This document shows positions 11,260-14,840 of a stretch of DNA of 64,000 nucleotides, one piece after another. Both the position numbers and the translations under genes were made by a program. A model generated the notes under the pieces. That model was not told the DNA's origin and did not search any database. It was given only the letters and a program-made list of their open reading frames with translations. Each line of letters opens with the position of its first letter. The stretch's first letter is position 1. Origin of the DNA: Microcella daejeonensis (lineage in GTDB: Bacteria; Actinomycetota; Actinomycetes; Actinomycetales; Microbacteriaceae); the NCBI RefSeq assembly GCF_026625045.1, contig NZ_CP113089.1:2542001-2606000 (forward strand). Direction: 5' to 3'.

Positions 11260-12158
11260 AGCCCGAGCTCCTCGACAACCATCCGCCGCAGGAACGCCGC
11301 CCCCGCATGGTCGTGCACGAGCTCGCCCTCGACGATCACCTCGTACTCGCGCTCGAGCACGCCGTCGGCCGGCCGCACGTCGACGTGCGCCACCGGGATG
11401 CCCCGCGCGTGCACGTGGTCGGCCATCAGGTAGTCCGAGCGCGAGTCGCCGACCGAGTACCAGCGGCGAGCGCCGACGCCGTGCGACGAGAACCACTGCA
11501 GGGCCCGGTCGGCCCCGCGATCCTTGTCGAGCCGCACCGACTCGATGTCGGTCGAGATGATGGTCGGATCGATGCGGAAGGGCGCATCACCCGAGGCGTC
11601 GGCCACGACTCGCGTGCCGTAGCGGATGCCCACCCCGAGCGAGCCGAGCAGGGCGAACGCCGCGGCCTGGAACGCCGTCTGCGCCGCGCGGTACACCTCG
11701 GCGGGGGCATCCACCCGCTGCTCGAGCGAGACCATGACGCGCTTGCCGTCGTCGACGAACATCGCGTGCCCGTAGTGCTCGCGCGCGAGCTCCTCGACGG
11801 CAGCGCGGGCGGGAGCGGGCAGCGCGACGCTCTCGTCGATCTCGAGCGCCCCGAGACCCGCGGGCGTGATGGGCGCCCAGACGCCGCCCTTCTCGAACAC
11901 GCCGAACACGAGGGCGGAGTCCCGCAGACCGGCGGCGACGAGCCGCGACACCACCTGCGAGCGCATGAACTCGTCACTGCGGCCCGTGATGAACGCGACC
12001 GGCACACCGGCGTGCGCCAGGGTCAGCAGATCGTCGACGATCGAGGGGATGGCGATGGTGCGCGACTCGGGGCTCGCGATGGGCCCGTCGACGTCGAGCA
12101 GCAGCCCCAGGGGAGCGATGATGGCCTCATGACCCGACTGAGCACTCTCACCCGTCAT
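11256..12158 (-). CDS. HAD-superfamily hydrolase
   Basis: A 300-residue protein with the HAD nucleophile motif LLLDVDGPIASP (DxDG, with Pro in place of the common Thr) near residue 20. Motif II is FITGRSDE, and the C-terminal motif is YSVGDSRSDYLMADHV, supplying the magnesium-binding acids. It probably hydrolyses a phosphate ester; the substrate is unknown. ATG 12158 has a strong Shine-Dalgarno sequence (GAGGAG with 5-6 bases spacing), so this start is well supported even though it lies 30 bp inside the divergent DUF2834 gene. The downstream small membrane protein overlaps its stop by four bases. Confidence 0.8.
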   Translation of the reverse strand: MTGESAQSGHEAIIAPLGLLLDVDGPIASPESRTIAIPSIVDDLLTLAHAGVPVAFITGRSDEFMRSQVVSRLVAAGLRDSALVFGVFEKGGVWAPITPAGLGALEIDESVALPAPARAAVEELAREHYGHAMFVDDGKRVMVSLEQRVDAPAEVYRAAQTAFQAAAFALLGSLGVGIRYGTRVVADASGDAPFRIDPTIISTDIESVRLDKDRGADRALQWFSSHGVGARRWYSVGDSRSDYLMADHVHARGIPVAHVDVRPADGVLEREYEVIVEGELVHDHAGAAFLRRMVVEELGL

Positions 12159-12500
12159 TGGACTCCTCGCGCCATCGTGTTCCTCGTTCTCGCGGTGATC
12201 GGCCTCGTCGGCACGTGGACGTACAACGTCATCGCCATCATCGAGCGCAACGACTTCCTGGGCGACTGGTTCAATAATGGCCCGGCGGTCGGATCCCTCA
12301 CGACCGACCTCCTCATCATGGCCGTCGCCGGCTGCGCCTTCATCGTCATCGAGGGCCGGCGACTCGGCATGAAGCACCTGTGGGCGTACATCGCCTTCTC
12401 GGGGCTCACCGCGATCGCCTTCACGTTCCCGCTGTTCCTGGCGAACCGCGAGCGGGCGCTGAAGCGGCAGGCCGAGAACATGGCACCCTCGGTGGAATGA
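12129..12500 (+). CDS. DUF2834 membrane protein
   Basis: A 123-residue protein with three predicted transmembrane helices. The DUF2834 landmarks are present: GTWTYNVIAIIE in the first helix region, NNGPAVGSLTTDLLIMAVAG in the second, EGRRLGMKHLWAYIAFSG, and FTFPLFLANRE at the end of the third. Function of the family is unknown; it is a cytoplasmic-membrane protein. ATG 12129 overlaps head-to-head with the start of the minus-strand HAD gene by 30 bp; a GTG at 12177 is a less likely alternative. It is coupled by ATGA to the following Pr6Pr gene. Confidence 0.8.
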   Translation: MTRLSTLTRHWTPRAIVFLVLAVIGLVGTWTYNVIAIIERNDFLGDWFNNGPAVGSLTTDLLIMAVAGCAFIVIEGRRLGMKHLWAYIAFSGLTAIAFTFPLFLANRERALKRQAENMAPSVE

Positions 12501-13273
12501 CGTACCGGTCTGACGCCGCCACCCGGGCGCGCCGTCGGACCTTCGGGGTGCTGCGCCTGCTCGCCGCCGTCACCGGCGTGATCGCCCTCGTCGCCCGCTT
12601 CGAGTACGGGCTCGGCTTCAGCGCCTTCGCCTCGGCGAACTTCTTCGCCTACCTCACCGTGCAGAGCAACATGGTGGCGGTGGTCGCGAACGTCGCCTGC
12701 GGCGTCGTGGCCCTGCGGCGGGCATCCGACCCCTGGTGGATGCCCGGACTGCGCGCCGCCGTCACGAGCTTCCTCCTCGTGGCCGGCATCGTCTTCGCCC
12801 TGCTCGCCTCGCAGGCCGCCGAGCGCGGCTACCGCCTCGACGTGCCCTGGAGCGACCAGATCCTGCACTACTGGCTGCCGGCCTACCTGCTGCTCGACTG
12901 GCTGTTCGCGCCGGGGGAGCGCCGGGTCAGCTGGCGCATCATGGCGGTCGTCGTCGGGTACCCGGTCGGCTGGGGTCTCGTCACCCTCGTGCGCGGGCCG
13001 CTCGTCGGCTGGTACCCCTACTTCTTCCTCGACCCGGCGCAGGTGAGCGGCTTCGGCGAGTTCGCGCTGTTCAGCCTCGCCGCGCTCGCCCTCTTCGCCC
13101 TCATCGCGGCGCTGCTCATCCTCGAGGGCCGGTTCCACCCGCTGCGGCGCCTGGAATCGGCGATCGGGATGCTGCGCCTCAGCCGCGCAGGAACGGCGCC
13201 AGGGACTCGACCACGACGTCGATGGCCTCGTCCTCGCCGAGCCCCGCGAACCGCCGGGCCTCCGCGCCGCTGA
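12497..13273 (+). CDS. Pr6Pr-family membrane protein
   Basis: A 258-residue six-helix membrane protein of the Pr6Pr (FAR-17a/AIG1-like) family, with an ATGA overlap with DUF2834. Typical features are YLTVQSNMVAVVANVACGV in helix 2, SDQILHYWLPAYLLLDWLF around helix 4, and YPYFFLDP with a final hydrophobic helix ending LILEGRFHPL. No catalytic role is established for bacterial members. The last 32 or so residues are a run of Arg, Pro and Ala that lies entirely inside the convergent amine oxidase gene (95 bp overlap), so the natural stop has probably been lost and the tail is likely non-functional. Confidence 0.8.
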   Translation: MTYRSDAATRARRRTFGVLRLLAAVTGVIALVARFEYGLGFSAFASANFFAYLTVQSNMVAVVANVACGVVALRRASDPWWMPGLRAAVTSFLLVAGIVFALLASQAAERGYRLDVPWSDQILHYWLPAYLLLDWLFAPGERRVSWRIMAVVVGYPVGWGLVTLVRGPLVGWYPYFFLDPAQVSGFGEFALFSLAALALFALIAALLILEGRFHPLRRLESAIGMLRLSRAGTAPGTRPRRRWPRPRRAPRTAGPPRR

Positions 13274-14576
13274 GCACCCCGACGAGCACGGGGTCGCCCG
13301 TCACGGCCTGGAGGTTGACCCAGGTGCGGATCAGCGCGCCGCCGTCGGTCGGCACGAGGCTCCAGGCCTCGGCGCTCTCCGTCCAGACCGGCTCGGAGTA
13401 GCGCACCCACACCGTCTCGAGGTACCCGACCGCGAGTGCGGCGATGCCCCGCCGGTTGGTGAGCGGCAGCTCGGGCTCGAAGGTGATGCCGCCCGACTTC
13501 AGCACCCCGAGCGGCACGGTGAGGACCGCGCGGTCGACGGTGAGCGACTCGCCCGTGCCGAGGCGCAGGCCCAGCGAGGCCTCCTCGCGCTGCACGGCGG
13601 TGACGGCGCTCGACTGCAGCACGTCGATCCCGTCGAGCAGCAGGTCGACGTACCGCTGCAGCCCGCCGACCGACAGCTTCCGGTCGCCGGTCGGCCGCTC
13701 GTCGAGGGAGTACCGCGCCGAGAGGCGCCGCGCCTCCGCTCCCGTGTCGATGCCGAGCGCGTCGGTGAGCAGGGCGGCCGCCTCGCGCGGCGAGGGACCC
13801 TCGCCGATCGGCGTCTCATCGAGGGGGGCGAGGCGGGCGAGAGCGCCGCTCACGGGCAGATCGAAGGCCACCTCGGCCGCCGCCGCGGCCACCGAGCCGG
13901 CGAGCATCTCGACGGCCTCGGCGGTCGTGCCGGCATCGAGCTCGCGATCCTCGGCCCGCACGGACGTGCGGGGCAGGAGCTCGGTCTCGACCCCCGCCTC
14001 CTCCAGGGCGGCGAGCAGCACGTCGTCGCGACCCTCGCGCAGCCACAGGGCGCCGAGCTCGTCGGGCTGCTGCCCCGCGCCGTCGACGGTGCGGATGCGC
14101 CCGCCGACGCGCTCGCGCGCCTCGATGACGTAGACCTCGAAGCCGGCGTCGCGGATGCGGCGCGCGGCGATCGCGCCCGCGAGGCCGGCGCCGACGACCG
14201 CGATGCGCTCGCCCTCCTCGGCCAGGGCGAGCAGCTCCTCGGCCGCCCGCTCGCCGCTCTCGCGGGCGCCCTCCAGGCTGCTGGGGGCCGTGCGGGAGGT
14301 CGCCTCGCCGGCGAAGAACAGCCGGTCGTCGACCGGCGCGGCCAGATCGTCGCGCCGGTCGGGCGTCTCGCCGACGGGGAGGAAGCTCGTGGCGCCCTGC
14401 GCGAAGCCGTCGCCCGTCCAGTCGCTGCGGCGGATGGAGACGGGCCGCAGGGGGTCGACGGGAGGCGTCGTGGTGGGGGCGGGGGTCGGCGTCGGGCGCT
14501 CCGGCGTGCACGCGGCGAGCGCCAGCACCGAGGCGCCGGTGGCCCCGGCGAGGAGGGTGCGTCGCGACACGGTCAT
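13179..14576 (-). CDS. Tat-exported lipoprotein flavin amine oxidase with circularly permuted domain order
   Basis: A 465-residue FAD amine-oxidase-like protein. The N-terminus has a twin-arginine signal (SRRTLLAG) and lipobox LAAC with Cys23, so it should be folded in the cytoplasm, exported and lipid-anchored. Residues 53-115 (DWTGDGFAQGATSF, LFFAGEATS, EGARESGERAA) are the segment that closes ordinary amine oxidases. Only after it comes the FAD-binding IAVVGAGLAGAIAARR (GxGxxG at 129-134) and ERVGGRIRT. The protein stops at VVVESLAPFLRG, just where that closing segment would normally follow. ATG 14576 is preferred over 14600 because it starts directly at the signal peptide. Substrate unknown. 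Confidence 0.85.
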   Translation of the reverse strand: MTVSRRTLLAGATGASVLALAACTPERPTPTPAPTTTPPVDPLRPVSIRRSDWTGDGFAQGATSFLPVGETPDRRDDLAAPVDDRLFFAGEATSRTAPSSLEGARESGERAAEELLALAEEGERIAVVGAGLAGAIAARRIRDAGFEVYVIEARERVGGRIRTVDGAGQQPDELGALWLREGRDDVLLAALEEAGVETELLPRTSVRAEDRELDAGTTAEAVEMLAGSVAAAAAEVAFDLPVSGALARLAPLDETPIGEGPSPREAAALLTDALGIDTGAEARRLSARYSLDERPTGDRKLSVGGLQRYVDLLLDGIDVLQSSAVTAVQREEASLGLRLGTGESLTVDRAVLTVPLGVLKSGGITFEPELPLTNRRGIAALAVGYLETVWVRYSEPVWTESAEAWSLVPTDGGALIRTWVNLQAVTGDPVLVGVLSGAEARRFAGLGEDEAIDVVVESLAPFLRG

Positions 14577-14668: not shown

Positions 14669-14755
14669 CACCTGACGAATCAGGCCTGTCTCAACCAGGT
14701 CGAAACCTATGGTCGAACGACCGACGAGAACGGATTCTCATCGGCCGGACCAGCG

Positions 14756-14840
14756 TGCGCGAGGGGGGACTTGAACCCCCACGCCCTATACGGGCACTAG
14801 CACCTCAAGCTAGCGCGTCTGCCATTTCCGCCACCCGCGC
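14756..14840 (-). tRNA. tRNA-Leu (anticodon GAG)
   Basis: An 85-nt type II tRNA. The acceptor stem GCGCGGG pairs with CTCGCGC (one G-U), and the discriminator is A73. The anticodon stem CTAGC/GCTAG encloses loop TTGAGGT, giving anticodon GAG at 14806-14804, which reads CUC, a favoured leucine codon here. A long variable arm and the T-loop TTCAAGT are present. The 3' CCA is not encoded. Confidence 0.95.

Follow-up and report, generated by a model that had tools for sequence, protein, structure and literature searches.

A circularly permuted relative of the flavin amine oxidases with a predicted lipoprotein anchor in Microbacteriaceae

A gene of Microcella daejeonensis encodes a relative of the flavin amine oxidases in which the chain begins with the segment by which the chains of ordinary members of the family end. 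We put the probability that this oxidase is a true circular permutant, inherited and conserved across many genera, at about 95%, and the joint claim, that it is a permutant of flavin amine oxidase and an exported flavoenzyme as well, is very likely. The gene was found in a window of 64,000 nucleotides, the whole stretch of DNA that was analysed (contig NZ_CP113089.1, positions 2,542,001 to 2,606,000), and nucleotide positions are given in the numbering of this window.

Few flavoenzymes have been studied as thoroughly as the flavin amine oxidases. In the literature searched, no paper was found that describes a circular permutant of them from nature, so that the permuted variant appears, as far as searched, to be undescribed. 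The permuted order in many genera, together with relatives of ordinary order in the same genus, offers a natural experiment on anchoring and chain order.

Order of the parts in the permuted chain

Read from its N-terminus, the protein consists of MTVSRRTLLAGATGASVLALAAC, a PT-rich linker, a segment from W53 to DGFAQG, LFFAGEATS, EGARESGERAAEE, VVGAGLAG and, at the end, VVVESLAPFLRG (Table 1). The motifs of the closing block, W..D...S, (F/L)AGEA(T) and GA..SG, are all present, but they are found at residues 45-118 instead of at the C-terminus. In this protein the block reads W..D.FA.G...LFFAGEATS...GA..SG..AA, motifs that are C-terminal in ordinary amine oxidases, and the chain stops, with SLAPFLRG, where in ordinary enzymes the closing block would come. 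A sequence-only reading of the window had placed the closing block at residues 53-115, GAGLAG at residues 129-134 and the end of the chain at VVVESLAPFLRG, and the translation confirms these positions. In an alignment of 40 permuted proteins, five of the six columns of GAGLAG are invariant, and the invariant residues include R5, R6, C23, G129, A130 and G131.

Table 1. Positions in the window of the permuted oxidase gene, its parts and its convergent neighbour.
Feature	Position	Strand	Basis
Whole permuted oxidase gene	13179..14576	-	ORF reading (465 aa + stop), AlphaFold2 model
Putative Tat signal peptide, residues 1-22 (MTVSRRTLLAGATGASVLALAA)	14511..14576	-	R5 and R6 invariant in 40/40 aligned permuted proteins
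Lipobox cysteine C23 (LALAAC)	14508..14510	-	Invariant in 40/40 aligned permuted proteins
Pro/Thr-rich linker, residues 24-44	14445..14507	-	Sequence; pLDDT block means 60-61 for residues 21-40
Displaced closing block, residues 45-118	14223..14444	-	Profile matches C-terminal part of LSD1/2, PAO, SMOX and MAO; rotation test
New junction, residues 119-122, old C-terminus joined to old N-terminus	14211..14222	-	Spacing of profile matches
FAD dinucleotide-binding motif GAGLAG, residues 129-134	14175..14192	-	Sequence, alignment
Amine oxidase fold body, residues 123-463	13188..14210	-	Ends at the helix that normally precedes the closing block
T388, position of the usual flavin-site lysine	13413..13415	-	Aligned to lysine of LSD2 GIIEKIAL; K in 41/42 ordinary relatives
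Pr6Pr family membrane protein gene, convergent partner	12497..13273	+	NF038065, E 3.9e-33

The protein matches Pfam family PF01593 with 166.6 bits, to be compared with a cut-off of 19.8 bits (E 1.5e-48), and in the best stretch its residues 132-462 are aligned with positions 1-364 of the 443 positions of the profile. Because it has T388 at the column of the flavin-site lysine, we class it by homology as a permuted PF01593 relative and do not regard amine oxidase activity as proven for it. The enzymes of this family (LSD1 and LSD2, the spermine and polyamine oxidases, and MAO) share with it the body, the FAD motif and the closing block, while the Microcella daejeonensis oxidase differs from them in having the block at the N-terminus, in being, as judged from its motifs, an exported lipoprotein, and in having a threonine in place of a lysine.

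Rotation of the chain

The rotation test makes use of a profile of 418 positions, built from 38 relatives of ordinary order. Against this profile the native oxidase gives two domains in swapped order: profile positions 345-418 are matched by residues 43-116 with 76.8 bits, and profile positions 1-338 by residues 125-461 with 209.4 bits. When the chain is rotated at residue 118, there is instead one single domain of 295.3 bits, and the alignment runs continuously over all 418 profile positions. At six other points of rotation the match splits, and the best reported score of 20 shuffles is 0.5 bits; a chance match of motifs is ruled out by these shuffles together with the other rotations. The same behaviour is seen in the permuted group as a whole, where 76 of 76 representatives obtain a higher one-piece score after rotation, with a median gain of 85.65 bits and a smallest gain of 0.2 bits.

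The solved structures give the same picture. In a search against them, LSD2 was aligned in three pieces and in rotated order, with query residues 120-161, 296-439 and 51-117. A profile of the displaced block matches LSD2 at residues 702-775 of 776, maize PAO at 386-458 of 472 and MAO-B at 380-454 of 520, and it also matches the C-terminal part of LSD1 and of spermine oxidase. Since the profile of the whole family matches maize PAO at residues 2-378, the ranges of block and family taken together account for almost the whole of this ordinary enzyme. No solved permuted chain was found among the matches listed (60 of 96 in the PDB), none of which has a best stretch that starts before profile position 115.

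The AlphaFold2 model, calculated for the chain without FAD, is a confident single-chain fold (pLDDT 91.1, pTM 0.86), and the ten-residue pLDDT means are 93-98 for residues 61-150. In a fold comparison with VIA-align, residues 117-465 of the model, i.e., the body, were aligned to LSD1 and PAO, and the best matches in the PDB, by sequence as well as by fold, are LSD2 and LSD1, with the polyamine oxidases and MAO below them. In the fold of MAO, PAO and LSD-type enzymes the two old chain ends lie close together, and for this reason the joint between them can be short: the gap between the two profile matches is 3-6 residues in 101 of 101 permuted proteins from Microbacteriaceae. The true circular permutation that the sequence-only reading had proposed is in this way supported by the alignment of the rotated chain and by the confident model, and it is supported further by the conserved permuted orthologues.

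Distribution of the permuted order

Among the nearest 60 genomes the permuted form occurs both in species of the same genus and in other genera. In the family Microbacteriaceae, 134 of 398 genomes have a permuted copy, 128 in a main clade and 6 assigned to a second clade, where the count rests on match coverage and not every copy was checked as an ORF; five of the second-clade genomes were read as loci (L052-L056), and one (G295) was assigned by score and genus code. A scan of contigs with the single oxidase protein as query found no relative, and a scan with an alignment as query found 511 relatives, from which the best 80 were kept. All of the best 80 of 511 loci hold a permuted ORF, with no other label among them, and this sample says nothing on how common the ordinary order is. 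Among its genera are Cryobacterium, Microcella, Agreia, Clavibacter, Microbacterium, Agromyces, Herbiconiux, Frigoribacterium, Nocardiopsis and Streptomyces, and unclassified Actinomycetota are also represented. At one locus (L149) the permuted ORF is split over two frames. In a sample of 396 genomes from the phylum 26 match at 1e-40, and in the class of genome G524 19 of 198 genomes match, with permuted and ordinary orders present in both samples. The genomes were sampled by search within Actinomycetota, and the permuted order is found in many Microbacteriaceae and in other Actinomycetota. The plasmid collection gave 8 records, none of which covers 80% of the oxidase query, and two plasmid loci (L195 and L196) have ordinary order.

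An assembly error, or a gene fusion unique to the genome of Microcella daejeonensis, would have produced a permuted gene in this genome, but the same order recurs in many independent assemblies, and the source genome is one contig, 99.98% complete. An assembly artefact is rejected on the ground of this recurrence, and the probability of any such genome-specific explanation is negligible. Quite as improbable is a duplication, where the N-terminal block would be an extra copy and the closing block would still be found elsewhere in the chain. The 182 distinct ORFs divide into 128 permuted, 46 ordinary and 8 without a match to the closing block, and the number with a block on both sides is 0; moreover, the tail that follows the body has a median length of 5 residues and a maximum of 39 in 124 permuted proteins. 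For the proteins examined, duplication is refuted by these two observations. Rearrangement in the assembly and duplication were the two explanations that the sequence-only reading had set against its own proposal, and both of them fail, nothing having been found in favour of either.

In five genomes of the same genus in which no permuted copy was found (G017, G009, G007, G011 and G022) there are amine oxidases of ordinary order that, like the permuted oxidase, have a Tat lipobox signal (L014-L018). Their identity to it is 44-56% for the closing block and 29-31% for the body, and they differ from it in their ordinary order and in having kept the flavin-site lysine (e.g., VLNKVFLQF).

One permutation or several

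Two trees were calculated: a quick one with 116 rows, from which L149 was left out, and a careful one with 65 rows out of 117 representatives. The smaller set, which was also used for the AU test and the lipoprotein test, lacks nine ordinary rows that were long or far, and likewise the noC rows and a large number from the main clade. Of 76 block references listed, 37 were taken into set A2, and of 65 references in a further list 60 were taken into set A3. The permuted rows are placed in a main clade of 60 rows, in a clade of 9 rows (five from Streptomyces and Nocardiopsis, four from Microbacteriaceae), in a pair (L205 and L206), and as the single rows L160, L173, L180 and L182. The deep branches are weakly supported.

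A single ancient permutation, inherited and spread across Actinomycetota, could have given rise to all permuted members, and we consider the chance of this to be a little better than even. In those permuted proteins that were read, the cut point is common, after a helix ending in ..LR.xY or SLxPF and before a PxP..xW segment, and the junction linkers are similar; from the shared cut site follows a slight preference for one origin. The AU test is in accordance with such an origin, in that a single permuted clade is not rejected (p 0.387, with a lnL only 8.2 lower). At the same time, both trees scatter the permuted rows over several places, with 5 changes of order for 116 rows and 6 for 65 rows, and 0% of 200 bootstrap trees of the 65 rows put all permuted rows on one side of a branch. 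This scatter is what would be expected if the permutation had recurred at the same loop, e.g., by tandem duplication, fusion and trimming, the old ends being side by side, and the linkers do differ somewhat between groups. Yet the deep branches on which the scatter depends are weak, recurrence is not demanded by the AU test, and a fused duplicate with a block on both sides, which would be its intermediate, does not occur among the 182 distinct ORFs. Recurrence is accordingly a serious but less probable alternative, and a single origin appears slightly preferable.

The six permuted rows outside the two larger clades stand among lineages of ordinary order and have the same loop cut, which makes them possible cases of recurrent permutation or of re-rotation.

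The flavin-site lysine

Ordinary members of the family have a lysine near N5 of the flavin, which we take to be K661 in LSD1 and K300 in maize PAO. This lysine is present in 41 of 42 ordinary relatives and in 37 of 101 permuted proteins from Microbacteriaceae, while it is lost in 64 of these 101, and the Microcella daejeonensis protein has T388 in its place. It is kept in all members of two other well-supported permuted groups (11 of 11 and 6 of 6) and in 4 of the 6 permuted proteins of the small remaining groups. From its being kept in other permuted groups follows that permutation does not require loss of the lysine, and most of the loss is, as read from the aligned sequences, one that arose within Microbacteriaceae. 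On the tree, a residue is present at this position in 113 rows, ordinary rows and small groups included, and 10 changes between K and non-K are needed to account for them.

The replacement of lysine by threonine implies that the substrate or the chemistry probably differs from that of a classical amine oxidase. The loss in 64 of 101 proteins speaks against ordinary amine oxidation, and the Microcella daejeonensis oxidase may not be a classical amine oxidase. One could go further and regard it as a flavoprotein that has degenerated, perhaps to the loss of catalysis, and that serves for binding or sensing instead of oxidation, in line with the loss of the lysine and with its many changes on the tree. 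Such a degeneration is, however, unlikely when the permuted proteins show little or no variation in the motif for FAD binding and in AGEA, and when the lysine is kept not only in 37 of 101 Microbacteriaceae proteins but also in all 17 of the two other well-supported groups.

Export and the lipid anchor

A twin arginine and a lipobox motif are found in 99 of 101 permuted proteins from Microbacteriaceae, compared with 10 of 42 ordinary relatives. That the oxidase is an exported FAD enzyme is a prediction that we consider likely. When the association between lipoprotein signal and permutation is examined with account of phylogeny on the 65-row tree, there is only one usable pair on supported branches. 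Two permuted proteins from Nocardiopsis (L143 and L148) are without signal peptide, and the permuted order is therefore not strictly tied to anchoring.

The predicted course of events is as follows. The oxidase would fold in the cytoplasm with FAD and be exported in folded form by the Tat system, after which C23 would be lipidated and the linker would hold the oxidase at the outer face of the membrane. The first block, with the FAD-covering strand, the GEATS loop and the last helix, would cover the flavin and then join the Rossmann fold through a short linker. The new N-terminus would be located at the loop between the body, after its last helix, and the block, so that the anchor would have moved from where the old N-terminus was. 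With its FAD the oxidase would then oxidise a substrate at the surface of the membrane, our best guess being that Pr6Pr assists in this. That permutation could be a means of re-siting the lipid anchor, as the sequence-only reading had suggested, is a hypothesis. A search of the literature found no paper in which amine oxidase, Microbacteriaceae and lipoprotein occur together.

A parallel is TpMglB-2 (Tp0684), a circularly permuted, membrane-tethered glucose-binding lipoprotein whose topology may, as its authors suggest, have evolved in adaptation to the anchor (PMC4990184). It is like the oxidase in being a natural circular permutant tethered to the membrane, but differs in being a ligand-binding protein of an ABC transporter and not a flavoenzyme, with another fold and in other bacteria; beside it, the oxidase would be a second tethered permutant.

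The Pr6Pr gene and a possible two-gene module

The gene that converges on the oxidase gene, and overlaps it by 95 nt at its own 3' end, encodes a protein that scores 114.9 bits against NCBIfam NF038065 (cut-off 30). Since the two genes are convergent, they are not part of one transcript. They are adjacent in 123 of 398 Microbacteriaceae genomes, and when Pr6Pr presence is counted at an E-value cut-off set by us, and without correction for shared descent, 125 of the 398 genomes have both Pr6Pr and a main-clade oxidase, 3 have the oxidase only, 1 has Pr6Pr only and 269 have neither. The six genomes with a second-clade oxidase are without a Pr6Pr partner and are counted among the 269. In 11 genomes of the same genus that do not have the permuted oxidase, the best Pr6Pr matches reach only 31-36% identity. 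We favour the view that Pr6Pr is a functional partner of the permuted oxidase, with appreciable room for doubt, and the pairing is a first functional lead for two uncharacterised families.

The Pr6Pr protein has an invariant Thr and an invariant His. It weakly resembles the TMEM164, AIG1 and ADTRP membrane lipid acyltransferases and hydrolases, and a Foldseek search with it gave nothing below 1e-3. The weak resemblance to TMEM164 and AIG1 suggests that Pr6Pr is an intramembrane lipid enzyme, and perhaps a single membrane lipid, or a single amphiphilic amine, would be acted on both by it and by the oxidase. The literature searches found no paper on Pr6Pr, and none that joins TMEM164, AIG1 and acyltransferase.

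To bring these elements together, consider a module of two genes in Microbacteriaceae, on the outer face of the membrane, in which an anchored permuted oxidase works together with a six-helix Pr6Pr protein related to TMEM164 and AIG1. The anchor would sit at the loop on the substrate side, the substrate would be membrane-borne, released or made by the partner and within reach of the active site through this position of the anchor, and the loss of the lysine would mark the point at which amine oxidation gave way to an oxidation of another kind. We regard this module as improbable in its full form, and a lipid substrate for the permuted oxidase as similarly doubtful.

A survey of neighbours at 93 loci, not all of them from different genomes, gave a second apparently conserved cluster (27 label groups, 74 loci), which is not one gene family: the members that were read are in part overlapping frames from the region of Pr6Pr and in part ORFs of low complexity, and a small number are proteins of unrelated kinds. 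In the window, the gene of a DUF2834 membrane protein (12123-12500, + strand) is located just upstream of the Pr6Pr gene, and on the other side a tRNA-Leu (gag) gene (14755-14840, - strand) adjoins the oxidase gene.
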